Positions 997 through 50,043 of a stretch of 63,515 nt of DNA are shown here, piece by piece. The stretch comes from Blautia sp. (GTDB lineage: Bacteria > Bacillota > Clostridia > Lachnospirales > Lachnospiraceae), in the NCBI GenBank assembly GCA_017463155.1, contig JAFTPT010000025.1, positions 1 through 63,515 of the forward strand. Direction: 5' to 3'. Numbering within the stretch: the stretch's first letter is position 1; the number at the start of each line of letters is the position of its first letter. The notes below the pieces were generated by a model, which was given only the letters and a program-made list of their open reading frames with translations, searched no databases and was not told the DNA's origin. A program made the position numbers and the translations under genes.

Positions 997-2100
997 TCAG
1001 TTCTCCTTAACCAGTTCGTTATATACCTCGTCACCCCAGAAAACATGGACGCTGTTCAGCAGGTATGTTTCATCCTTGTACCCGACCGCGTGGCAGATAT
1101 CCGGCAAAGAGACGCCCTTTTCCAAAAGCTCCCTTGCCTTTTCCATGCGCATCACACGGAGATACCGGCCGACGCTCATTCCCGTGGTCTTGCGGAAAAC
1201 AAACCCCAGGAATCCGGGCGCGATCGAGAATTCCCTGGAAAAATCCTCCCTCGTCAGGTCCTCCCCGTAGTGCTCTGAAATGTATTTTTTTATCTCCAGT
1301 ACTTTTTCTGTGGAGGCTTCCACCGATTTGTTCAGGAAGGCTTCATACTGGCGGATATTTTCCTCTGTGACGGCCAGGATCTGATCCATCTTCTCACAAT
1401 GATACAATCTCTCGATCTCTTCCCCTGGAGTCCGGAGCCCGACAAATTCATTCTCGGAATAAAGTTCCTGTATGACATTCGAAAAAACGAATTTTACATA
1501 CATCGCCGAGAACCGGGACATCTCCTCATACTTCTGGGTCAGGCAGTGATAGTGATACCACAGACGGCTCATGTCCTTACGGCTGATATCCTCCGAGATC
1601 CGCTGGACAAAATAGGAATCGAGCGTCTCCGTATTCAGCTTCAGTTCCGCTTCCGGGTTGGAAATATAGACATGCTCATCCGGGTGATAGTATTTCTCGT
1701 CGATCAGCTGCTCCAGCTGGCGCATGGCCGCGGGAAGGGTCTCCCAGGATTCGATCGGATCGCTCACCGCAAAATGAAGGCGTTCGGTATACAGACGCTT
1801 CAGGTATACATAGATATGGTTGGCGATCAGTTTGTAGTCGACTCCTTCATCTTTAAAAAGAAGAAGGGACTGGTGGATATTGATATTCAGATAATCAAAT
1901 TCTTTTGGAAGCACCTTACGGATCTCTTCTTTGAATTCGCTGCTCTTTTTATCCATGACAGGCTGATACACGTCGAGAAGGATCGCCGAGTGCCAGCATT
2001 CCCCGAATTCATCGCGAAGCGCAGCTGAAAGCTCTTCGGGAGAATCTCCTTCGCCGGAGAACAGGTATTTCTGAAGAAGATACTCTTTCTGATAGTCCAT
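997..2100 (-). CDS. AraC-family transcriptional regulator (YesN-like, no receiver domain)
   Basis: A 367-residue regulator with a long N-terminal sensing region and a C-terminal helix-turn-helix domain (about residues 265-350; EIKKYISEHYGEDLTREDF, then SVGRYLRVMRMEKARELL and ICHAVGYKDETYL). The central region resembles that of YesN-like regulators, but no CheY-type receiver precedes it. The second HTH ends abnormally: after GYKDETYL the usual F-K-x-x-x-G-x-S-P-x-x-Y-R pattern is missing and the chain ends in 22 atypical residues, so a frameshift near 1030-1060 is possible. It sits 18 bases downstream of the GH13 gene, so it may regulate carbohydrate use. The target is inferred from position only. 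Confidence 0.8.
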   Translation of the reverse strand: MDYQKEYLLQKYLFSGEGDSPEELSAALRDEFGECWHSAILLDVYQPVMDKKSSEFKEEIRKVLPKEFDYLNINIHQSLLLFKDEGVDYKLIANHIYVYLKRLYTERLHFAVSDPIESWETLPAAMRQLEQLIDEKYYHPDEHVYISNPEAELKLNTETLDSYFVQRISEDISRKDMSRLWYHYHCLTQKYEEMSRFSAMYVKFVFSNVIQELYSENEFVGLRTPGEEIERLYHCEKMDQILAVTEENIRQYEAFLNKSVEASTEKVLEIKKYISEHYGEDLTREDFSREFSIAPGFLGFVFRKTTGMSVGRYLRVMRMEKARELLEKGVSLPDICHAVGYKDETYLLNSVHVFWGDEVYNELVKEN

Positions 2101-2118
2101 AGATATTCCTTTCCCGGA

Positions 2119-4224
2119 TCAGTTCTCCTCATGGTACAGGATCATGATCCCGAACGCGGGCATGGTAAATGAAGCCAGCCCTCCTTTGGCCGTATAATAG
2201 GCCGTTTCCTCTGTAAACCGCCTGCTGTCCGAGAGCATGATCCGCTCCAGCAGCGCGTCGGTATTCCTGCTGATCCCGGCTTTCCAGACGCCGATCTCCA
2301 CTTCCCGTTCCGTATCCTGGTTGTTAATGATCACGATCAGCTGCTCATCATAACTGAATCTGGCATACGCAAGGCCCTGATAATCATTCCACAGGAAAAC
2401 AAGCGACCCGCTGCTGATGATCCCGAACCTTTTGTGGATGCGTATCATCGCCTTGTGGAAATCCAGCATCTGCAGATCCTCCCGGCCCCAGGGGAACGTA
2501 CGCCGGTTGTCGGGATCCGTGAATCCGCAAAGACCGGCTTCGTCTCCGTAGTAGACCGTCGGGCAGCCCGGCCAGGTCATCTGAACGGCCACAGCTTCAC
2601 GCATGACGGCTGGATTGATCTCCTCCGATGCCGCCTGTGCTCCAAGCGATGCGACCCTTCCCACTTTGTGGTTGGTCCTTGTCAGAAACCTCGAATGATC
2701 GTGGTTTGACAGTTCATTCATCGCCGTGTAAAGCGCCTGCATATGCAGTGTCTGCATGTTCTGCCGCATGGCGCTGATAAAGGCCTCGCTGTTTCCGAAA
2801 AGATCCTCCCTGAATTCATCGGAATGCTTTTCCATCCCGGTGAGAAACCAGGTCAGCGGTTCCATGAACGCGTCATAGTTCATGACCGTGTCCCATTCGT
2901 CGCCGTGAAGCCAGCTCTCGGGGTTGCCATAATGCTCTGCAAGGATCACCGTGTCCGGATTGGCATTTCTGACAGCCCTGCGGAAGTCCTTCCAGAATTT
3001 GTGGTTGAACTGCTCGCTGTGTCCAAGATCGGCCGCTACATCGAGCCGCCATCCGTCAATATTATACGGCGGGGAGACCCATTTCCGTCCGATGTTGAGA
3101 ACATGGCGGTAAAGAGCCATGGAATCCTCATAGTTCAGTTTCGGCAGTGTGTTATGCCCCCACCAGCCGTCGTAGGTCGCATTGTAAGGCCATGCATATT
3201 CATTTTCAAACCGGAAATAATTCCGATAGGGACTTTCCGCGGAGACATACGCCCCGGCAGGGTACCCCTCCCGGTTTTCGTAGATTCGCTCCCTGTCCAT
3301 CCACTTGTTAAATGAACCGCAATGGTTGAATACGCCGTCAAGAATGATCTTCATCCCTCTTCGGTGGATCTCCTCCACGAGGCGGACAAAGAGTTCGTTG
3401 CTGGCTTCCAGGTTCCTTGGGTCTGTTACCCTGGCAATATATTTGTACGCATGGGTATTATCCTGGTCCCCGTCCTGAAGAAGCCGGTCATCATCAGCCA
3501 CGATCTTCCCGAAATGCGGGTCCACAGCCTCGTAGTCCTGGCAATCATATTTGTGGTTGCTGGGCGAAACAAAGATCGGATTCAGATACAGGACTTCTAC
3601 CCCCAGTTCCTGCAGATAATCAAGCTTGTTCATGATCCCCTGCAGGTCACCGCCGTAGAATTCCCTGATATCGACCTCGGCCGGCGTCGCGTTCCAGTCC
3701 TGCACGCGCGTGCTCCAGCCCTCGATATACGCATATTCTCCCGTCTCGACATCGTTCGTCGGATCTCCGTTGCAGAACCTGTCCGGAAAGATCTGGTACA
3801 TGACCTTTCCCCTGAACCACTCCGGAGTATCAAAATCAGGATAGATGACAAAATCCATCCTCGGGTCTCTCTCGCCCGCAAAGCCGGCTGCCTGGTAATA
3901 ATACGTGTTCCAGCCGAACATGATCTCAAAATAATAGGAAACCGGGTTCTCCCCGATGGTCAGTACCGCTTCGTAATAATCGAACCCGTTCCGGCTCATG
4001 ACCACCTTCATGGGATATCGCTCCCTGTCTGCCACAAGCATAGCCCCGTCGATGTTATTTCGGGCTGTCCGGATCCGGATATGCACTTCATCACCTGACT
4101 TTGGCGTCACCGGGCTACGGAAATACTCGGATCCGTCGCTGTAGATGGCAGAACGGTTGAGGATCGGACGCATGTTCAGCATGTACTGCATCTTTCTGTT
4201 GGCGATCGTTCTTTCGAAATCCAT
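2119..4224 (-). CDS. GH13 alpha-amylase/neopullulanase family glycosidase
   Basis: A 701-residue enzyme expected to hydrolyse alpha-glucans or maltodextrins. The first ~130 residues look like a CBM34-type N-domain, as in neopullulanase and cyclomaltodextrinase. The (beta/alpha)8 barrel carries the GH13 motifs in order: DGVFNHCG (region I), GWRLDVAAD with the nucleophile Asp (II), ILAEHYG with the acid Glu (III) and ELSNHDHSRFL with the transition-state Asp (IV). There is no signal peptide, so it is probably cytoplasmic and acts on imported oligosaccharides. It has its own promoter and is followed by the AraC regulator and flavodoxin genes. Exact linkage preference cannot be read from the sequence. 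Confidence 0.92.
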   Translation of the reverse strand: MDFERTIANRKMQYMLNMRPILNRSAIYSDGSEYFRSPVTPKSGDEVHIRIRTARNNIDGAMLVADRERYPMKVVMSRNGFDYYEAVLTIGENPVSYYFEIMFGWNTYYYQAAGFAGERDPRMDFVIYPDFDTPEWFRGKVMYQIFPDRFCNGDPTNDVETGEYAYIEGWSTRVQDWNATPAEVDIREFYGGDLQGIMNKLDYLQELGVEVLYLNPIFVSPSNHKYDCQDYEAVDPHFGKIVADDDRLLQDGDQDNTHAYKYIARVTDPRNLEASNELFVRLVEEIHRRGMKIILDGVFNHCGSFNKWMDRERIYENREGYPAGAYVSAESPYRNYFRFENEYAWPYNATYDGWWGHNTLPKLNYEDSMALYRHVLNIGRKWVSPPYNIDGWRLDVAADLGHSEQFNHKFWKDFRRAVRNANPDTVILAEHYGNPESWLHGDEWDTVMNYDAFMEPLTWFLTGMEKHSDEFREDLFGNSEAFISAMRQNMQTLHMQALYTAMNELSNHDHSRFLTRTNHKVGRVASLGAQAASEEINPAVMREAVAVQMTWPGCPTVYYGDEAGLCGFTDPDNRRTFPWGREDLQMLDFHKAMIRIHKRFGIISSGSLVFLWNDYQGLAYARFSYDEQLIVIINNQDTEREVEIGVWKAGISRNTDALLERIMLSDSRRFTEETAYYTAKGGLASFTMPAFGIMILYHEEN

Positions 4225-39985: not shown

Positions 39986-41089
39986 TTACTGCGGCGTGCC
40001 TGTCTCGGGTATCTCGGGCGAAGTGTACTTTGTCCGTACCGTAATGTCTGTATACAGATATTCCTGTTCCGGCTCCCGAAGGCTGGCCAGCAGGTCCACG
40101 AGGGACATCACGGCCCGGAGGCCCTGGTTGTATCCGTCCTGGTCGATGACAAAGTCCACAAGATCCTGCCCCAGGAGCGTACGGTTCCGCGGGGTCAGGT
40201 CATAGATGATGATGTAGGGTCTTCTCCCGTCCTCCCGGGTGGCAAGCAGGCTCTTTACCTCCGGATCCTCCAGCGCGTCACGGATCCCCAGCTGTCCGCT
40301 GGACACCATGAAGATCCCGCCCAGGTCCGGATGGCTTTTCAGCGAATTCCGGATGATCGAAGCCACTTCCTCCTGCCGGTCCATGCTGGGGCTGATCCCG
40401 ATCAGCGAGATATCCGGAAAGCTCCTCGCCAGTTCCTCTGAAAACCCGTCCAGGCGGAGCAGGCTCGTGCTGTTGGAGAAGCTCCCGATCACGCCCAGGA
40501 CACTCCCGCGCCCGTGCATCAGAATCCCGAGAAGCCCTGCCGCGGTCCTGCCGCCCTGGCGGTTGTCCATTCCGACGAACGCGGTCCTTCTGGTCCCGAT
40601 GATATCCGTATTGAAGGTGATCACCCGGACGTCAAGATCCCGGATCATGTGCCGGAGACGATCCCGGACTCCGTCGCATTCGACCGGCATGATGGCCAGC
40701 CCGTCCACGCCAAGCTCTTCCAGCTCATCCAGCGCTTCGCACTGCTGTTCTTCGTCCACACCCGGGCATTCCTTGATGACGACCTCGATCCCGTAGGCCT
40801 GCGCATCCTTTTTTGCCTCTTCCAGGCCCTTCCGGATCGACAGCATGAAGGAGGCTCCCGAGAGCTGCGTCACCACACCGATCCTCCGGACCGGACGCAG
40901 TCCTCTTTCCCTGTCCTGCTTCAGCAGTTCTTTTCTCTCTGTCTTGGTCTTATATCCGATCTGGCGGGCTGCTTCCCGGACGCGTACAGCCACTTCCGGA
41001 TTGACTCTTCCCCGATTGTTCAGCACGCGGTCGACCGTTCCCCTCGAAACGCCTGAAAGCTCCGCGATCTGTTTCATTGTGCCTGCCAT
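39986..41089 (-). CDS. LacI-family transcriptional regulator
   Basis: A 367-residue repressor-type protein. The N-terminal HTH and hinge are clear (MKQIAELSGVSRGTVDRVLNNRGRV), followed by a periplasmic-binding-protein-like sensor domain (RIGVVTQLSGASFM, GVDGLAIMPVE, VGMDNRQGGRTAAGLL). This is the group that senses free sugars or polyols. An AGGAGG-type site precedes the ATG. It is encoded directly upstream of the iolD promoter in the same direction, and head to head with the T-box operon. Inositol or an inositol derivative is the natural guess for the inducer. Confidence 0.92.
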   Translation of the reverse strand: MAGTMKQIAELSGVSRGTVDRVLNNRGRVNPEVAVRVREAARQIGYKTKTERKELLKQDRERGLRPVRRIGVVTQLSGASFMLSIRKGLEEAKKDAQAYGIEVVIKECPGVDEEQQCEALDELEELGVDGLAIMPVECDGVRDRLRHMIRDLDVRVITFNTDIIGTRRTAFVGMDNRQGGRTAAGLLGILMHGRGSVLGVIGSFSNSTSLLRLDGFSEELARSFPDISLIGISPSMDRQEEVASIIRNSLKSHPDLGGIFMVSSGQLGIRDALEDPEVKSLLATREDGRRPYIIIYDLTPRNRTLLGQDLVDFVIDQDGYNQGLRAVMSLVDLLASLREPEQEYLYTDITVRTKYTSPEIPETGTPQ

Positions 41090-41203: not shown

Positions 41204-41233
41204 TTGACAACAGCAAAGGCTGCATGGTATAAA
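41204..41233 (+). promoter_or_regulatory. Promoter of the T-box operon
   Basis: A perfect -35 TTGACA (41204-41209), an 18-base spacer and the -10 TATAAA (41228-41233). It faces away from lacI and starts the long untranslated leader that carries the T-box. Confidence 0.8.
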
Positions 41234-41239
41234 TGATAA

Positions 41240-41541
41240 AACTGCATATGGTCATAAAAGCGATGACGAAGAATGGCCCAGGTGATAAAACAGCAAAGAG
41301 AGCCGGCGGCTGGTGTGAGCCGGTATGTAAAAGCCTCTGTCCTCTGACTTCCGAGCTGGAAGCCTGAAGCGTCCGGAAATCCTGTTTTCCGCACGTGCGT
41401 AGGGTGCCCCGAGAATGCTGCGTAAGTGCAAAGAAGTTGATTGACTTCACCGAGGTGGCAGATATTTTTCTGCAATTTGAGTGGTACCGCGAGTATAACG
41501 ATTATGCCCGTCTCAAAGTAATGTGCTTTGAGGCGGTTTTT
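41240..41541 (+). ncRNA. T-box riboswitch leader with intrinsic terminator
   Basis: An untranslated leader of about 300 bases with the hallmarks of a tRNA-sensing T-box. The stem I distal part is AGAGAGCCGG ... TGGTGTGAGCCGG (about 41297-41323). The T-box core is GTGGTACCGCG (41481-41491) and includes the TGGT that pairs with an uncharged tRNA end having discriminator A. The terminator stem is CCGTCTCAAAG (41508-41518) with CTTTGAGGCGG (41526-41536), then TTTTT. The specifier codon could not be fixed by hand: the candidate loop at about 41338-41356 holds Leu codons (CTC, CTG, CTT) and Phe TTC. Leu is favoured by the downstream LeuA-like gene. Confidence 0.9.
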
Positions 41542-41633
41542 CTGTTGTCTGAAAACGCGGCTTAAAGCAGTCCGAGTACCGGAGATCTTTCTCCATGACA
41601 CAGCAGGATCAGAATTTGAACAGGAGTGACAAA

Positions 41634-43043
41634 ATGAAAACGATCAAATTAATCGACATGACGCTGAGAGAATCCGCAAATATCAAGGGCAGCAATCTCT
41701 CCTTCAAGGAGAAGCTCGAGATCGCACGTATCCTGGACCGCCTGAAGGTGGACATCATCGAACTGCCCTCCATCACCGGCGGAAAGGCCGACCAGCTGTC
41801 GAACAAGACGATTGCCTCGATGGTCAACACCGCCATCACGGCTGCGGTCGATATAATAGGAAGTGATATTGAAGAAACCTGGGAAAGCATCAAAAGCGCC
41901 GGCAAGCCCAGGCTGAACGTCGTAGCGCCCGTATCTCCCGTCCAGATGGAATACAACGCGCACAAAAAAGCGCCGGCCATGCTGGAGCTGATCACGGAAA
42001 AGGTCAAGCAGGCCCGCTTCTACTGTGAGACCGTCGAATTTACCGCCGCCGACGCGACCCGGGCAGAGCTTTCCTTCCTCTGCAGCGCCATTCAGGCCGC
42101 CATCGACGCAGGCGCCGGAAAGATCACCCTCTGCGATACCGCAGGCATCTATCTTCCGGATGAATTCGCCCATTTCCTGGACGCGGTCCGGGCACAGGTC
42201 CCCGCTCTCGAAAACGTACAGCTCTACGTGGAACTCAAGGATGAGATGAATATGAGCGTCGCCTGTGCGGCCGCCGCCATAAAAAGAGGTGTGGACGGGA
42301 TCAAATGTACGGCTGTCCCCTCCGGCTATCCGACCCTGGAACAGCTGATGCGGTTCGTGCAGATCAAAGGCTCTGCCATGGACATCAGTTCCGGACTCCG
42401 CTCTACCGAGCTCGGCCGTGCCGTCAGCCAGCTGGGATTTGTCCTGAAGCCCAGGGAGGAAGAATCCACCTTCGGAAACATCGCCATGGGTGAATCCATC
42501 AGCAACATCTGCCTGGATATCAACGACGAGATCTCCGAGGTGATCAAGGTGGTCCGCCAGCTCGGCTATGACCTGAGCGATGAGGACAATGCCCGCGTGT
42601 ACGAGGCTTTCCGCCGTGTTGCGCTCAAAAAGCAGTTCGTCGGCAGCCGTGAGCTGGACGCCATCGTCGCAAGCTCCGCCATGCAGGTGCCCGCTGCCTA
42701 CCGGATCGAGAATTATGTGATCAACAGCGGAAATATCATCACCGCCACCGCCAACATCCTCCTGGAAAAGGACGGACAGAAACAGCGCGGCGTCGGTGTC
42801 GGCGACGGTCCCATCGATGCCGCCTTCGTGGCGATCGAGCAGATCATCGGCCATCACTATGAGCTGGACGATTTCCAGATCCAGACCGTCACCGAAGGCA
42901 GAGACGCCATGGGCAGCGCCCTTGTAAAGCTCCGCGCCGACGGCCGTGTCTATTCCGGCACCGGGATCTCCACCGACATCATCGGTGCATCGATCCGTGC
43001 CTATATCAGCGCACTCAACAAGATCGTCTATGAGCAGGCTTGA
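41634..43043 (+). CDS. LeuA/CimA-like DRE-TIM protein with LeuA dimer domain, metal site altered
   Basis: A 469-residue protein related to 2-isopropylmalate and citramalate synthases. The barrel begins IDMTLRESANIKGS, then VEFTAADATRAE (Glu about 135) and LCDTAGIYLPDEF. The LeuA regulatory/dimer domain fills the C-terminus (VGVGDGPIDAAF). The metal ligands of true synthases look replaced: TLRDG is TLRES, the HxHND motif is LYVELKDE (about 197-204), and the later Asn-containing motif is not seen. The chemistry is therefore uncertain; it could be a divergent synthase, a new lyase or a regulator. The start is ATG 41634 with AGGAG; an upstream ATG at 41595 has no good site. It is the first gene after the T-box. 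Confidence 0.8.
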   Translation: MKTIKLIDMTLRESANIKGSNLSFKEKLEIARILDRLKVDIIELPSITGGKADQLSNKTIASMVNTAITAAVDIIGSDIEETWESIKSAGKPRLNVVAPVSPVQMEYNAHKKAPAMLELITEKVKQARFYCETVEFTAADATRAELSFLCSAIQAAIDAGAGKITLCDTAGIYLPDEFAHFLDAVRAQVPALENVQLYVELKDEMNMSVACAAAAIKRGVDGIKCTAVPSGYPTLEQLMRFVQIKGSAMDISSGLRSTELGRAVSQLGFVLKPREEESTFGNIAMGESISNICLDINDEISEVIKVVRQLGYDLSDEDNARVYEAFRRVALKKQFVGSRELDAIVASSAMQVPAAYRIENYVINSGNIITATANILLEKDGQKQRGVGVGDGPIDAAFVAIEQIIGHHYELDDFQIQTVTEGRDAMGSALVKLRADGRVYSGTGISTDIIGASIRAYISALNKIVYEQA

Positions 43044-43057
43044 GAGGAGGAACCGGT

Positions 43058-45556
43058 TTGAAGCTTTCATATTCCATCCAGAACTGGGCAGGCCTCGACT
43101 GGGCCGGGCTGTTAAACGCCGCCACCGAGACGCGCCTTTCCGGCATCGAATTATATGACATCAGCAGTCCTGTATTCCGCGGAAAAAGCAGCCCCACCAA
43201 TCCGGAGCTCTCCGCTTCCACCAGAAGGCATCTGGTAAACCAGGGGCTTTCGATCCCCTGCCTGGATACCGATCCCGACCTTACGGATCCCTCCTTTCTT
43301 CCGGTCCTGGAAGAGAGCCTCACGGCAGCCGTGAATCTGGGGATCCCGTACGTCAGCATCCACACGGACTGCACCGACCACGGGCTCTGTATCGCGAAGG
43401 TCCGGGAAGCGCTGGAGCAGATCGGAACGCGCCCCGTGACCATCCTGATCAATACCACCGGGGCCTACCAGGATACCGGCCTTCTGCGCGACCTTCTGAA
43501 CACCTTTGCCGACGACCATCTCGGCGCGTGCTGGGATATGTTCGGCTCCTACGCCCTCGGCGGTGAGGACGCGGAGACGACCATCACAAACCTGGGCGCT
43601 TATGTCCGCCATGTACATATCCATGATTTCCGCAAGGAAGACGGCCAGGTCGTTCCCGAGCTCATGGGAGACGGGCGGCTTCCCATCGGCGATATGATGA
43701 ACGCGCTCCGTTCCGTCAATTACGACGGCTTTATCTCGCTTCTGTGGGATCCCGAATGGATCCCGGAGCTTTCCGATATCGAGATCATCCTGACGCATTT
43801 TGCCAGCTGCATGAGTCATTTTGAGGAGACCCGCCGCAACCGCCGGCATCTCTACTGGAACAACCGCCACACCGGCCGTTATGTATGGAAGAAGGAGTCC
43901 CTGATCGACAAGACCTTCCCCCAGGTGCTGGACACGATGGTGGAGAACTTCCCCGACCAGCTGGCCGTCAAGTTTACGACGCTCGACTATACCAGGACCT
44001 ACAGCCAGTTCCGGGACGATGTGGACGAATTCGCCCGTGTTCTGATCTCCCTGGGCGTACGGGCCGGTTCCAAGGTCACCATCTGGGCCACCAACGTACC
44101 GCAATGGTTCCTGACCTTCTGGGCAACCACCAAGATCGGCGCGGTCCTGGTCACTATGAACACCGCCTACAAGATCCACGAGGCCGAATACCTGCTTCGC
44201 CAGTCCGATATGCACACGCTGGTCATGATCGAAGGCTACCGGGACTCCAATTACCGTGAGATCATGAATGAGCTCTGCCCGGAGCTTGCAAAGACCAGGG
44301 CAGGACAGCCGCTGCATGCCAAACGGCTTCCCTTCCTCCGCAACATCATCACCGTGGGCTTCCGCATGCCCGGCGCCATGACCTGGGAGGAGACCCTCCC
44401 CTACGCCGAGCGTACGCCCATCGAGGAGGTCCGGCGCATGGCCTCGGCCGTGGATGTCAATGACGTCTGCAACATGCAGTATACCTCCGGAACGACCGGC
44501 TTCCCCAAGGGCGTCATGCTGACCCACTACAATATCGTAAACGACGGAAAATGCATCGGTGACGGCATGGATCTCTCCACCGCGGACCGGATGATGATCC
44601 AGGTCCCCATGTTCCACTGCTTCGGCATGGTACTGGCCATGACGGCCACCATGACCCACGGCGGGACGATCCTGCCCCTTCCGTATTTTTCACCGAAATC
44701 CTCGCTGGCGTGCATCAACAACGAGCGGATCACGGCGTTCCACGGAGTGCCTACCATGTTCATTGCCATGCTCTCCCACCCGGATTTCGAAAAGACCGAC
44801 TTCAGCCACATGCGCACAGGCATCATGGCCGGAAGCCCCTGTCCCATCGCTGTCATGCGTGACGTCGTCGACAAGATGAACATGAAGGAGATCGTGATCG
44901 TCTACGGCCAGACCGAGGCTTCGCCCGGATGTACCATGAGCCGGACCACCGATTCTCTTGAGGTCCGTGTCACCACCGTAGGCTCCGCCTTCCCCGAGAT
45001 CGAGTGCAAGATCGTTGATCCCGAGACCGGCGAGGACTGCCCGGATGAAGTGATCGGAGAATTTGTCGCCAGAGGCTACAATATCATGAAGGGCTACTAC
45101 AAGATGCCCAAGGCCACCGCCTCCGCGATCGACAAGGACGGATGGCTTCACACCGGCGACCTGGCCTGCCGTACACCGGAGGGCAATTACAGGATCACGG
45201 GGCGTCTGAAGGATATGATCATCCGCGGCGGCGAGAACATCTACCCCAAGGAGATCGAGGAATTCATCTACACCCACCCGAAGGTCAGCGATGTACAGGT
45301 CATCGGGGTGCCTGACAAGGCCATGGGCGAAGAGATCATGGCCTGCATCATCCTGAAGGAAGGCGAGACCATGACCGTGGAGGAAATGAAAAAGTACGTG
45401 CTGGATCACATGGCCAAGCACAAGGTCCCGAAGTACATCGATTTTGTCGATGGCTTCCCCATGAACGATGCCGGCAAGATCCAGAAATACAAAATGCGCG
45501 AGCAGGCCATCGAAAAGCTCGGTCTGCAGACGGATGCAAGCATCGAGACAGCCTGA
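43058..45556 (+). CDS. Fusion: sugar-isomerase-like TIM barrel and AMP-forming acyl-CoA synthetase
   Basis: An 832-residue two-domain protein. Residues 1-260 resemble IolE/xylose-isomerase-type TIM barrels (LSYSIQNWAGLDW; HVHIHDFRK). The metal Glu positions read Asn (ILINTTG, about 132) and Leu (ISLLWDPEW, about 229), so the barrel may not isomerise. Residues about 285-830 form a complete acyl-CoA synthetase: MQYTSGTTGFPKGVMLTH P-loop (about 475-485), YGQTEASPGCT, GWLHTGDL, GRLKDMIIRGGENIYPKEIE and the C-terminal catalytic Lys in DAGKIQKYK. The start is TTG 43058, 7 bases after GAGGAGG and 14 bases past the preceding stop. The acid substrate is unknown. Confidence 0.85.
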   Translation: MKLSYSIQNWAGLDWAGLLNAATETRLSGIELYDISSPVFRGKSSPTNPELSASTRRHLVNQGLSIPCLDTDPDLTDPSFLPVLEESLTAAVNLGIPYVSIHTDCTDHGLCIAKVREALEQIGTRPVTILINTTGAYQDTGLLRDLLNTFADDHLGACWDMFGSYALGGEDAETTITNLGAYVRHVHIHDFRKEDGQVVPELMGDGRLPIGDMMNALRSVNYDGFISLLWDPEWIPELSDIEIILTHFASCMSHFEETRRNRRHLYWNNRHTGRYVWKKESLIDKTFPQVLDTMVENFPDQLAVKFTTLDYTRTYSQFRDDVDEFARVLISLGVRAGSKVTIWATNVPQWFLTFWATTKIGAVLVTMNTAYKIHEAEYLLRQSDMHTLVMIEGYRDSNYREIMNELCPELAKTRAGQPLHAKRLPFLRNIITVGFRMPGAMTWEETLPYAERTPIEEVRRMASAVDVNDVCNMQYTSGTTGFPKGVMLTHYNIVNDGKCIGDGMDLSTADRMMIQVPMFHCFGMVLAMTATMTHGGTILPLPYFSPKSSLACINNERITAFHGVPTMFIAMLSHPDFEKTDFSHMRTGIMAGSPCPIAVMRDVVDKMNMKEIVIVYGQTEASPGCTMSRTTDSLEVRVTTVGSAFPEIECKIVDPETGEDCPDEVIGEFVARGYNIMKGYYKMPKATASAIDKDGWLHTGDLACRTPEGNYRITGRLKDMIIRGGENIYPKEIEEFIYTHPKVSDVQVIGVPDKAMGEEIMACIILKEGETMTVEEMKKYVLDHMAKHKVPKYIDFVDGFPMNDAGKIQKYKMREQAIEKLGLQTDASIETA

Positions 45557-45571
45557 CAGAGCGGAAAAACC

Positions 45572-46489
45572 ATGACTGACAAGTATCATTTTATTGCCGA
45601 CAATCCAAATGCGGATTATTATAGAAAATGTGAACGTGATTATCACATCGGGGACAGACCCGCTTCGAAAGTGTTTGACAGCCACTGCCACATCTATCCG
45701 GACGGGATCGCCCCGAAGGCCGTCATCGCCATCGACCGGTTTTACAAGGATCTCCCTCCTTCCCATCACGATGGTACGGCGTCCACGCTTTTGAAGGAAG
45801 GACGCGAACAGGGGATCTCCCATTTCATCGTCCATTCCGTCGCCACCACGCCCGCCCAGGTAACGGTGATCAACCATTTCATCACCCGGGCCGCAGCAGA
45901 GTCCGGAGGAGCCTTTACGGGAATGGGGACCATGCATCCGGACAGCCCGGACCCCCGGAAGGATTTTGAGGAGCTGTGCTCCCTGGGGCTGAAAGGCGTA
46001 AAGCTTCACCCGGATATCCAGCGTTTTGATGCGGATTGTCCCTGGGCCATGAGCGTCTATGAAATGTGCGAGGATGCAGGCCTTCCCGTCTGTGTCCATA
46101 CGGGGGATTACCGGTATGACTATTCCAATCCGGAACGGATCGCCGGGATCCTGAAGCGTTTCCCGCGCCTTACCTTTATCGGGGCGCACTTCGGAGGCTG
46201 GAGCGTCTGGGATGACGCCGCCCGGCTCCTGCCGGACTATCCAAACCTGGTCGTTGACACATCCTCCAGTTTTTACTGGCTTGAACCCGGGAACGCCAAA
46301 GAACTGATCCGGGCCTTCGGATCGGAACGGGTCATGTTCGGGACGGATTATCCCATGTTTCCCCGGGAACCGGAGCTTGAATACCTGAGACGGCTTGCAC
46401 TTTCGTCCCGGGAATATGAAGATATATGCTGGCGGACCTGCAGCAGGGTCTTCGGAATCGCACAGAGCAAAGGAGAAGCAAATGTCTGA
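45572..46489 (+). CDS. Amidohydrolase family protein (COG2159, ACMSD-like)
   Basis: A 305-residue metal-dependent TIM-barrel enzyme. The metal set is intact: FDSHCHIYP (HxH), GVKLHPDIQ, CVHTGDYRYD, IGAHFGGWS and MFGTDYPMF with the final Asp. Members of this group hydrolyse amides or lactones, or decarboxylate aromatic and unsaturated acids. It lies 15 bases after the acyl-CoA synthetase fusion and overlaps the next gene by 8 bases. In this operon a decarboxylase or lactonase role on an organic acid is more likely than amide cleavage, but nothing in the sequence fixes it. Confidence 0.85.
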   Translation: MTDKYHFIADNPNADYYRKCERDYHIGDRPASKVFDSHCHIYPDGIAPKAVIAIDRFYKDLPPSHHDGTASTLLKEGREQGISHFIVHSVATTPAQVTVINHFITRAAAESGGAFTGMGTMHPDSPDPRKDFEELCSLGLKGVKLHPDIQRFDADCPWAMSVYEMCEDAGLPVCVHTGDYRYDYSNPERIAGILKRFPRLTFIGAHFGGWSVWDDAARLLPDYPNLVVDTSSSFYWLEPGNAKELIRAFGSERVMFGTDYPMFPREPELEYLRRLALSSREYEDICWRTCSRVFGIAQSKGEANV

Positions 46490-49400
46490 GAAAAACAAAA
46501 CCTACGTAACGATGGACGGCAACGAGGCTGCTGCCTATATTGCCTACGCCTTTACCGAGATCGCGGCCATCTATCCCATCACTCCCTCGTCTCCCATGGC
46601 AGGAAAGACGGACGTCTGGTCCGCAAAGGGCAAAAAGAACCTGTTCGGCCAGACCGTACAGCTTGTCGAGATGCAGTCGGAGGCCGGCGCCATTGCCGCC
46701 GTCCACGGAGCCCTGGAGACCGGGGCCCTGGCGACCAGCTTCACCTCCTCGCAGGGACTCATGCTGATGATCCCCGTCATGCACAGGATCGCGGGACAGC
46801 GGCATCCCGGCGTTCTTCATGTGGCATCCCGTACGGTGGGAACACACGCACTGTCCATTTTCGGAGACCACTCGGACGTCATGAACTGCCGCCAGACCGG
46901 CTTTGCCCTTCTCTCCACGGGAAGCGTGCAGGAGGTCATGGACCTGGCCGGCGTGGCGCACCTTTCCGCCATCAAGGGAAGGATCCCGTTCCTTCATTTC
47001 TTCGATGGCTTCCGTACCTCGCATGAGATCAACAAGGTGGAGCAGATCGACTATGAAGACCTGAAGGGAATGCTCGATACGGAGGCGCTGGACGCCTTCC
47101 GCGCCCATGCCCTGAACCCGGAGCATCCCTATCTTCGTTCCACCGTCCAGAACCCGGATATCTTCTTCCAGGTACGTGAGGCAAACAACACGGCCTATGC
47201 CGTTCTCCCCGATATCGTGGAAGATTACATGCAGAAGATCAATGCTCTGACCGGCAGGGATTACCATCTGTTCAACTATTATGGCGCGCCGGATGCTGAA
47301 CGCGTGATCGTGGCCATGGGCTCCGTCAGCGGCTGCGTGCAGGAGGTCGTCGACTACCTGAACGCCCGCGGTGAAAAGGTCGGCTATGTCCAGGTCCATC
47401 TGTTCCGTCCCTTCGATATGAAGCGCTTTGCCGCCGCATTCCCGGATACGGTCCGCTCCATCGCGGTCCTCGACCGTACCAAGGAGATGGGCAGCGCCGG
47501 CGACCCGCTCTACCAGGATGTATGTACCGCCTTCCGCGGACGCTCCGATCTTGTGATCGTCGGCGGACGCTACGGGCTTTCCTCCAAGGATACCACGCCC
47601 GCGCAGATCCTTGCGGTCTACGAGAACCTGAAGGCTGAAAAGCCGCTGAACAGCTTCAGCATCGGCATCGTGGACGATGTGACCCACCTTTCCCTTCCGG
47701 AGCCGGCTCCTCTGTATCCCGACGGGGACGGTGTCGTCAGCTGCAAGTTCTGGGGGCTTGGCTCCGACGGTACGGTCGGCGCCAACAAGAACACGGTGGA
47801 GATCATCAATTCCCACACGTCCAAATTTGCCCAGGCCTACTTTGAGTACGACGCCAAGAAATCCTACGGCGTCACCAAGAGCCATCTGCGGTTCGGCAGC
47901 AGTCCCATCCGCTCGTCCTACTATGTCAAATACGCGGATTTTATCGCCGTCCATAATTCGACCTACATCGAGAATTTCGACATCGTCTCCGAGATCAAGC
48001 CCGGAGGGACTCTGCTTCTCAACTGTCCCTGGGACGATCAGGAGCTTGCCGCACATCTGCCGGCGAAGGCCAAACAGCAGATCGCAAAGAACAAGATTCA
48101 TGTGTACACCATCGATGCCGTGAAGATCGCCGGCGAGCTGGGACTCGGCAGCCATTTCAACATGCTGCTCCAGTCCGCGTTCTTCCACCTGATGCCCGTG
48201 ATCCCCGTCGAGGAATCCATCGGCTACATGAAGGACGCCGCCGCAAAGACCTACTTTGCCAAGGGTGAGGAGGTCGTGGCCCGGAACCTTGCCGCGATCG
48301 ACGCCGGCAAGGACGGTCTGCACGAGGTCAGCGTACCGGCAGAGTGGCTGACCGCCGAGGATGCACCGGCTCCGGAGCGCAATGTTCCGGAGGTTGTCAC
48401 AAAGATTCTTGATCCCATCAACCTTCAGAAGGGCGATGATCTTCCGGTCAGCACCTTCGCAGGCTACGAGGACGGCATCATGGACATGGGCCTGACCGCC
48501 TACGAGAAGCGCGGCATCGCCACACAGGTGCCGGTCTGGGATCCGGACAGATGTATCCAGTGCAACAAGTGCAGCTATGTATGTCCCCACGCGGTGATCC
48601 GTCCTTATCTTCTCACGGAGGAAGAAAAGAACGCGGCTCCGGCCGGTATGAAGATCGTTCCCGCCAAGGGAAGACAGGCGGAAGGCCTGTACTTCACCAT
48701 GCAGGTCAGCACCCTCGACTGTACCGGCTGCGGCAGCTGCGAAAACTGCTGTCCGGCCAAAGAAAAGGCACTGACGATGCGTCCGGCCTCGGAGGTTCCG
48801 GATAATCTGGATCTATGGAACTACGCCCTCTCCCTTTCCGACAAGGGCGATCTGTTCGATCCATATACCGTCAAGGGAAGCCAGTTCCGCCAGCCCCTGC
48901 TCGAGTTCTCGGCCGCCTGTGCAGGCTGCGGGGAAACGCCCTATGCAAAGCTCCTGACCCAGCTGTACGGCGACCGGGTCTTCTGGGCCAACGCCACCGG
49001 CTGTTCCCAGGCCTGGGGCGGCGCGATGCCCGGGATCCCCTACACGGTCGATAAAAAAGGACATGGTCCCGCCTGGTCCAACTCCCTGTTCGAAAACAAC
49101 GCGGAATTCAGCCTGGGCATGGTCCTCTCCGTCCGTCAGCAGCGGGAAGCCCAGAAAGCCCGTCTTCTGTCCTACAAGGACTCCTGCGGCGATCCTGCGG
49201 TCTGCGACGCGATCGACAGATGGCTGGAAACCTACGATGACTTTGACGCCTCCGCCGGCGCCAGCAAAGACCTGATCGACCTGCTCCTTACAAAGGATGA
49301 TCCGGACGCCGCTGTGATCCTGCGGTACCGTGACCAGCTTTCCAAAAAGACCTTCTGGATGTACGGAGGCGATGGCTGGGCATACGATATCGGCTTCGGC

Positions 49401-49976
49401 GGACTGGACCACGTGATCGCCAGCGGTGAAAACGTCAACGTCCTGATCGTGGATACCGAGATCTATTCCAATACCGGCGGACAATCCTCCAAGGCAACGC
49501 CCATCGGCGCTGTCGCGCAGTTCGCGTCGTCCGGCAAAAAGCGTCCCAAGAAGGATCTGGGCGGCATGCTGATGACCTACGGCAATGTCTACGTCGCGCA
49601 GGTCGCCATGGGCGCCGACAACGCACAGCTGGTCAAGGCTCTCCATGAGGCAGAGTCCTTCAACGGCCCCAGTGTCGTGATCGCCTATGCGCCGTGCCAG
49701 TCCCACGGGCTTCGCTGCGGTATGGCAAAGGTGCAGGATGAGATGAAGCGTGCCGTGGAAGCCGGTTACTGGCATCTGTACCGCTATAATCCGACCGCGG
49801 AGCCGGCCTTCCAGCTCGACTCCAAGGCGCCGAGCCTGCCCTATGAGGAGTTCCTGGACGGGGAAGTCCGTTATGCTTCCCTGAAGCGCACGTTCCCGGA
49901 GAACGCAGAGAAGCTGTTCGCCGAAGGCGCCCGCCAGGCTCAGGAACGCTACGAGCAGCTGAAGAACCGCAGATAA
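46482..49976 (+). CDS. nifJ: Pyruvate:ferredoxin (flavodoxin) oxidoreductase
   Basis: A 1164-residue single-chain enzyme interconverting pyruvate plus CoA with acetyl-CoA, CO2 and reduced ferredoxin. Domains in order: the pyrimidine domain (AIYPITPSSPMA), a CoA/transketolase-like domain, the gamma-type domain (GLGSDGTVGANKN), a 2[4Fe-4S] insert (CIQCNKCSYVCPH and CTGCGSCENCCP), and the ThDP domain (ACAGCGETPYAKL, GGDGWAYDIGFGGLDHV, NTGGQSSKATP). The start is ATG 46482 with AAAGGAG, inside the end of the amidohydrolase gene. Being last in a T-box operon is unusual; it may run as pyruvate synthase or accept another acyl-CoA. Confidence 0.96.
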   Translation: MSEKNKTYVTMDGNEAAAYIAYAFTEIAAIYPITPSSPMAGKTDVWSAKGKKNLFGQTVQLVEMQSEAGAIAAVHGALETGALATSFTSSQGLMLMIPVMHRIAGQRHPGVLHVASRTVGTHALSIFGDHSDVMNCRQTGFALLSTGSVQEVMDLAGVAHLSAIKGRIPFLHFFDGFRTSHEINKVEQIDYEDLKGMLDTEALDAFRAHALNPEHPYLRSTVQNPDIFFQVREANNTAYAVLPDIVEDYMQKINALTGRDYHLFNYYGAPDAERVIVAMGSVSGCVQEVVDYLNARGEKVGYVQVHLFRPFDMKRFAAAFPDTVRSIAVLDRTKEMGSAGDPLYQDVCTAFRGRSDLVIVGGRYGLSSKDTTPAQILAVYENLKAEKPLNSFSIGIVDDVTHLSLPEPAPLYPDGDGVVSCKFWGLGSDGTVGANKNTVEIINSHTSKFAQAYFEYDAKKSYGVTKSHLRFGSSPIRSSYYVKYADFIAVHNSTYIENFDIVSEIKPGGTLLLNCPWDDQELAAHLPAKAKQQIAKNKIHVYTIDAVKIAGELGLGSHFNMLLQSAFFHLMPVIPVEESIGYMKDAAAKTYFAKGEEVVARNLAAIDAGKDGLHEVSVPAEWLTAEDAPAPERNVPEVVTKILDPINLQKGDDLPVSTFAGYEDGIMDMGLTAYEKRGIATQVPVWDPDRCIQCNKCSYVCPHAVIRPYLLTEEEKNAAPAGMKIVPAKGRQAEGLYFTMQVSTLDCTGCGSCENCCPAKEKALTMRPASEVPDNLDLWNYALSLSDKGDLFDPYTVKGSQFRQPLLEFSAACAGCGETPYAKLLTQLYGDRVFWANATGCSQAWGGAMPGIPYTVDKKGHGPAWSNSLFENNAEFSLGMVLSVRQQREAQKARLLSYKDSCGDPAVCDAIDRWLETYDDFDASAGASKDLIDLLLTKDDPDAAVILRYRDQLSKKTFWMYGGDGWAYDIGFGGLDHVIASGENVNVLIVDTEIYSNTGGQSSKATPIGAVAQFASSGKKRPKKDLGGMLMTYGNVYVAQVAMGADNAQLVKALHEAESFNGPSVVIAYAPCQSHGLRCGMAKVQDEMKRAVEAGYWHLYRYNPTAEPAFQLDSKAPSLPYEEFLDGEVRYASLKRTFPENAEKLFAEGARQAQERYEQLKNRR

Positions 49977-49981
49977 CACAC

Positions 49982-50027
49982 AAAAAAGAGCCGCCGTTCG
50001 ATCATCCGCGAACGGCAGCTCTTTTTT
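49982..50027. terminator. Terminator of the T-box operon
   Basis: AGAGCCGCCGTTCG pairs with CGAACGGCAGCTCT, with a 6-A run before and TTTTTT after. It ends the nifJ transcript and can work in both directions. Confidence 0.85.
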
Positions 50028-50043
50028 GCTGACCTGAAAGCAA

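Follow-up and report, generated by a model that had tools for sequence, protein, structure and literature searches.

A leucine T-box operon of Blautia and a proposed route from isovalerate to leucine

The window analysed here is a stretch of 63,515 nucleotides from Blautia sp. (contig JAFTPT010000025.1 of assembly GCA_017463155.1, positions 1 to 63,515), and the system in question is a four-gene operon at 41,204–50,027, in which a T-box leader precedes the genes for a LeuA-like protein, a fusion of a TIM-barrel domain with an acyl-CoA synthetase (TIM/ACS), an amidohydrolase, and a NifJ-type 2-oxoacid:ferredoxin oxidoreductase. It is likely that this operon directs the synthesis of leucine from isovalerate when leucine is scarce, and that it replaces the standard leucine pathway. 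In the proposed mechanism, uncharged tRNA-Leu would allow RNA polymerase to read through the terminator of the T-box, and the ANL domain of TIM/ACS would convert isovalerate (3-methylbutyrate) into isovaleryl-CoA. The NifJ paralog, with a pocket reshaped for the acyl side chain, would then join isovaleryl-CoA with CO2 at the expense of reduced ferredoxin to form 2-ketoisocaproate, and a branched-chain aminotransferase, expected elsewhere in the genome of the window and encoded within the cluster in other families, would yield leucine. The LeuA-like protein would have no catalytic role, and its leucine-binding domain would sense leucine as feedback on the new route. Isovalerate is put forward as the acid because of the leucine control and the enzyme classes encoded.

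The operon and its leucine specifier

On the forward strand, promoter-like hexamers read by eye (TTGACA at 41,204–41,209 and TATAAA at 41,228–41,233, with an 18-nt spacer) are followed by the T-box leader at 41,254–41,518, with a leader terminator at 41,508–41,536 located by a terminator scan. The LeuA-like gene spans 41,634–43,043, its conserved start being 41,634 rather than 41,595. TIM/ACS begins with a TTG codon after a gap of 14 bases (43,058–45,556), the amidohydrolase gene follows after 15 bases (45,572–46,489), and nifJ overlaps the latter by 8 bases (46,482–49,976). A rho-independent terminator of 20 pairs at 49,981–50,028, listed on the reverse strand and in a shorter form on the forward strand, closes the operon. 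The promoter at 41,204–41,233 is not listed by a stricter promoter scanner because that scanner demands a final T. A first-pass annotation, made from the letters alone, had described a strong promoter, a full T-box leader, four genes with these gaps and this overlap, and a terminator, and the parts were found as it claimed.

The covariance model RF00230 matches the leader with 81 bits (E 5.5e-18 over 601 bases), and a gathering scan of the whole window missed it because this score is under the Rfam gathering score of 93. The leader has in common with T-box leaders a stem I, an AGAGAG/GGCGG-GGTG distal loop, a specifier, a GTGGTACCGCG antiterminator and a terminator, the last two both being present; it differs in that it would control a route from an acid to an amino acid that includes a probable pseudoenzyme. 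The specifier codon, which the annotation had left to be fixed by such a model, is CUG (Leu) at 41,344–41,346 by its position in the specifier loop, where the 8-nt 3′ strand (41,340–41,347) adjoins a lower stem in which GAAG (41,268–41,271) pairs with CUUC (41,348–41,351). An alternative register, CUC at 41,342–41,344, likewise specifies leucine.

A search with eight LeuA-like proteins listed 80 loci out of 416 stretches encoding some relative, true LeuA probably being among the 416. The 80 loci come from records of Lachnospiraceae and Clostridia, mainly genomes assembled from metagenomes, and ruminants appear in many of the titles; strain FE2018 (L082, the same as G095), not flagged in its record as a metagenome-assembled genome, is among the carriers. 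The gene order, whose conservation the annotation had proposed to check, recurs: TIM/ACS lies next to the LeuA-like gene in 79 of the 79 testable loci, and NifJ lies downstream in 26 of the 29 loci with at least 7 kb of downstream sequence. The amidohydrolase, an Amidohydro_2 protein, is present in 21 of 38 loci with at least 3.7 kb downstream and is an optional accessory of the operon.

In 60 of 75 loci, a T-box core is located no more than 450 nt upstream, and four of the seven related genus loci scanned carry a T-box at 100–114 bits, which exceeds the gathering score. All 62 leaders with a core, namely that of the window and those of 61 of the 80 loci (60 distinct sequences), have a leucine specifier when read by motif with a check of position: CUC in 61, and CUG in the window. 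The motif AGYCUC...GAG fits 59 of the 62, the 3′ strand of the loop reading AGYCUCN before a 4-nt stem strand whose exact 5′ partner is found in 56 of these 59, and the leaders of L148 and L153 read CUC by position. Four leaders beyond the 62 (L197, L200, L202, and L008) also carry CUC. As an internal control, the T-box that precedes ileS in L202 (974 bits, cut-off 621) reads AUC by the same rule.

The LeuA-like protein and the loss of the isopropylmalate pathway

Carriers of the LeuA-like gene have mostly lost the isopropylmalate pathway. The gene is carried by 15 of the 64 genus genomes, in two of them as a fragment (74 residues only in G079, and a partial gene in G068). A leuB gene over the cut-off occurs in one of these 15 carriers versus 44 of the 49 non-carriers (Fisher 3e-9), and leuC, with fragments and LeuC-like hits counted, in three of 15 versus 47 of 49 (Fisher 1e-8), both tests being uncorrected for kinship. 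Among genomes at least 90% complete, leuB is present in none of six carriers and in all 32 non-carriers. Through 50 of the 80 loci, 50 carrier genomes were reached, 49 of them new, since the genome of L085 is G070 of the genus set; leuB passes the cut-off in five of the 50 (5/49 of the new ones), and leuC in six. The searches in FE2018 returned only weak matches, at the level of dehydrogenases for leuB (5.6e-7) and of aconitases for leuC (6.2e-24). Seven class genomes have the LeuA-like gene among 20 neighbourhoods of TIM/ACS that were read; six of them show no leuB at E 1e-100, the exception being G344. In G017, the operon occupies the site of ilvN-ilvC-leuA2 in the genome of the window (G000), between the same flanking genes, thrC included, and in FE2018 ilvN-ilvC lies upstream of the operon on the opposite strand.

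The LeuA-like protein shares with LeuA (2-isopropylmalate synthase) its fold, as judged from a structure model, the LeuA_dimer domain that follows an HMGL-like domain, and the motifs of the leucine domain; it differs from LeuA in having no metal ligands, a deleted GER loop, and a length of about 470 residues. Its best NCBIfam LeuA model scores 299.8 bits, below the cut-off of 532. In the window, alignment places the substitution of the metal-ligand Asp of TLRDGEQ (now TLRE) at 41,670–41,672 and the replacement of the HxH metal motif by ELK at 42,231–42,239. For a wider alignment, 105 loci were taken, L106 was dropped for an internal stop, and the remaining 104 were cut to 90 sequences by identity. 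The ligand Asp is found in none of the 90, H201 in one (L116), H203 in none, and the GER catalytic loop in none. The leucine domain is kept, with 109.8 bits to LeuA_dimer and with GDG.hDA and G.STD retained in 86 to 90 of the 90 sequences at each site. These sequence features indicate that the LeuA-like protein is probably a pseudoenzyme that retains a leucine-binding domain, and it is most likely a retired 2-isopropylmalate synthase kept as a feedback leucine sensor of the new route.

The LeuA-like protein could alternatively be an enzyme that has acquired a new, metal-free reaction on the acyl-CoA made by the synthetase, with the product of that reaction, and not leucine, as the aim of the operon. 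This is unlikely, as neither the canonical metal ligands nor the GER loop remain, the substituted residues differ from protein to protein at the other sites (Glu, Gln, Ala, Asn, and others), and many of the invariant columns fall in the leucine-binding domain. The first-pass annotation had proposed a starvation-induced route from an acid through acyl-CoA to a 2-oxoacid, and onward through a LeuA/CimA-like step. The first part of this proposal is supported, and leucine can be specified as the amino acid; its onward step is not supported, since the metal site and GER loop of the LeuA-like protein are lost and leuB and leuC are absent in most carriers, and the isopropylmalate route is therefore unlikely to follow. 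A CimA/isoleucine route was likewise rejected, given the leucine specifier and the missing metal site.

The synthetase, the oxidoreductase and related clusters

TIM/ACS, the proposed isovaleryl-CoA synthetase, has both domains of an ANL acyl-CoA synthetase (AMP-binding, 298.9 bits; C-terminal, 63 bits) behind an N-terminal AP_endonuc_2 TIM barrel. It retains the ANL core motifs, as YTSGTTGFPKG and GKIQKYKMRE; an inactive synthetase domain had been named in the first-pass annotation as fatal to its pathway. In a set of 72 proteins, from which those shorter than 780 of the 823 residues or with stops were dropped, the TIM domain is far less conserved than the synthetase (mean major-residue fraction 0.57 versus 0.86), and in the protein of the window Asn replaces the glutamate of its LLVETNG motif. 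Split counterparts of the fusion exist as well: at L051:2677-10885 (G053), genes for IorA, IorB, PaaK, and a 147-residue protein precede unfused ACS and TIM genes, which thus lie beside another 2-oxoacid oxidoreductase. These neighbours prompted consideration of aryl acids as the substrate, but the leucine specifier argues against them for the operon of the window.

The operon NifJ, the proposed 2-ketoisocaproate synthase, shares with pyruvate:ferredoxin oxidoreductase (PFOR) its entire architecture and its family score, and differs in being a second paralog with an altered substrate pocket. Another nifJ in the source genome (G000:C31) is 57% identical to the operon copy, which falls within the range seen for copies from other members of the genus. 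In the PFOR of D. africanus, the residues described round the methyl group of pyruvate are Leu121, Ala219, Ile843, Asn996, and Met1202 (PMC5020499). Alignment equates Ala219 with Val222 of the window protein (47,145–47,147) and Ile843 with the Ala844 of Gln843-Ala844 (49,008–49,013). The wider comparison was restricted to proteins longer than 1100 residues, with those more than 70% identical taken as operon copies (30 rows, of which two are duplicates). At the sites of Leu121, Ala219, Ile843, and Asn996, the 28 distinct operon proteins have Leu or Met (15 and 13), Val (28), Ala (28), and Asn (28), and the 20 other NifJ proteins have Leu (19), Ala (19), Ile (19), and Asn (20). Gln-Ala stands at 843-844 in 28 of 28 operon copies, versus Ser-Ile in 19 of the 20 others. 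The narrow pocket for the pyruvate methyl is thus altered at two of the four testable residues in every operon copy, Met1202 falling beyond the aligned chain, which ends at about 1165. By their sequence, these changes would fit an acyl group other than that of pyruvate. Outside the family, one NifJ (G052:C17, at L163:9195-12725) is the exception among the others at Ala219 and Ile843: it has the Val/Gln/Ala pocket, has no synthetase gene as a neighbour, and belongs to a genome that is 99% complete and lacks leuB. The Gln-Ala motif recurs in another NifJ, encoded at a contig end in a carrier genome (L167:8877-11738, G024:C29).

Of 391 class genomes, 159 encode a TIM/ACS relative at E 1e-150 or lower, some of these relatives matching the ACS part only. 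The LeuA-like gene is present in seven of the 20 neighbourhoods read, and in eight of 12 class loci scanned that have no LeuA-like gene directly upstream, TIM/ACS follows a CUC T-box. No aminotransferase is encoded in the operon of the window, ilvE not having been searched for elsewhere in G000. In L197, a single run begins with one leucine T-box and continues with genes for a CbiA-like protein, VorB, beta and gamma subunits, IlvE, the LeuA-like protein, TIM/ACS, and the amidohydrolase, bringing synthetase, ferredoxin oxidoreductase, and aminotransferase together under leucine control. The same set is present in L200, where another T-box, also specifying leucine, stands ahead of the LeuA-like gene; L201 holds VorB and IlvE, and L199 holds IlvE. 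VorB-type 2-oxoacid:ferredoxin oxidoreductases thus replace NifJ beside the LeuA-like, TIM/ACS, and IlvE genes in L197, L200, and L201; unlike the NifJ of the window, they consist of separate subunits, of which beta and gamma score too low to pass the curated cut-offs for any named family. L200 also encodes, upstream of its VorB genes, a 762-residue fusion of helix-turn-helix, cupin, and AMP-binding domains (1059-3347) behind a T-box (765-1005) that reads GUA (Val) by the same rule, and this pair is possibly an isobutyrate-to-valine counterpart.

Weight of the evidence and precedent

Another account, in which acetate is the acid activated by the synthetase and NifJ works as a standard PFOR, so that the operon supplies acetyl-CoA and pyruvate when leucine is short, is rather improbable. 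It draws on the score of the operon NifJ against the PFOR equivalog model TIGR02176 (1707.6 bits, cut-off 911.35) and on the unchanged carboxylate-binding residues and Asn996. The genome, however, encodes a second nifJ and the methyl pocket of the operon copy is changed, and the latter is therefore probably not a plain pyruvate enzyme; a reading of NifJ as PFOR alone was set aside on this comparison of operon and other copies. In addition, leuB and leuC, which leucine synthesis from acetyl-CoA would need, are those missing in most carriers, and the partner in other families is a VorB-type enzyme together with a branched-chain aminotransferase. The reverse route, in which 2-ketoisocaproate would pass through isovaleryl-CoA to isovalerate as in leucine fermentation, is very improbable, because although the same enzyme classes work oxidatively in amino-acid fermenters, a leucine T-box, as is established for its class, switches genes on when leucine is scarce, and a leucine fermenter would have no need to lose leuB and leuC.

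Several observations weigh against leucine synthesis from isovalerate as the function of the operon, the family score and retained residues of NifJ among them. The T-box is mostly kept but not always: no core was found in 15 of the 75 loci, a fifth, cmscan found no T-box in seven core-less loci (L075, L123, L132, L136, L139, L142, and L149) or in two loci with short leaders, and at E 0.01 none was found in three of the seven related genus loci (L004, L006, and L007), the leader of L004 being short and at a contig end. Similarly, nifJ is missing downstream in three of 29 loci (L088, L100, and L109). Lack of the T-box or separation of nifJ in homologous operons had been named by the first-pass annotation as refuting its pathway, and both elements are retained in most of these operons. 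The loss of the standard pathway is incomplete, with leuB kept in six of 64 carriers, a weaker LeuB-like gene in 14 of the 50 and three of the 15 carriers (192–267 bits in the former, 185–267 bits overall), and a LeuC-like gene (388–445 bits) in seven more of the 50. G000 itself retains an intact-looking leuA2 (776 bits) adjoining ilvN-ilvC, and carriers within one genus are not independent of each other. TIM/ACS alone is found in many genomes with leuB, and an effect of TIM/ACS alone on leuB loss is thus unsupported across the class.

The carboxylation of isovalerate to leucine in rumen bacteria is known from the biochemistry of Allison and co-workers (1962 and 1966, as cited in PMC7356843). 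The route proposed here resembles that pathway in its chemistry, in which an acid, CO2, and amination yield leucine, and in its rumen setting; it differs in that the earlier work was biochemical, whereas the present route is proposed from genes, with predicted substrates. A literature search that covered few subscription journals found no gene set for isovalerate carboxylation and no paper that names the genes of this operon, which does not imply their absence from print. The operon type of the window probably represents the genes for this route of the 1960s. Branched-chain acids are classic rumen growth factors, and their carboxylation to amino acids has been known for some sixty years; a gene set marked by a T-box would allow isovalerate cross-feeding to be read from genomes and isovalerate-dependent species to be predicted, which would bear on feed supplements.

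A broader scenario is offered tentatively, with slightly more doubt than belief. Lineages without leuB and leuC would live on isovalerate from other microbes, their own LeuA, now dead, would have become a diffusible leucine-sensing subunit that shuts the new route allosterically and might dock on the N-terminal TIM domain of the synthetase, and the same leucine-controlled synthetase would have spread through the class. Were a biosynthetic enzyme to survive only as the sensor of what it once helped to make, it would offer an elegant example of a pseudoenzyme. Beside the operon, a gene for a LacI-type regulator (39,986–41,089, reverse strand) is transcribed divergently from it.

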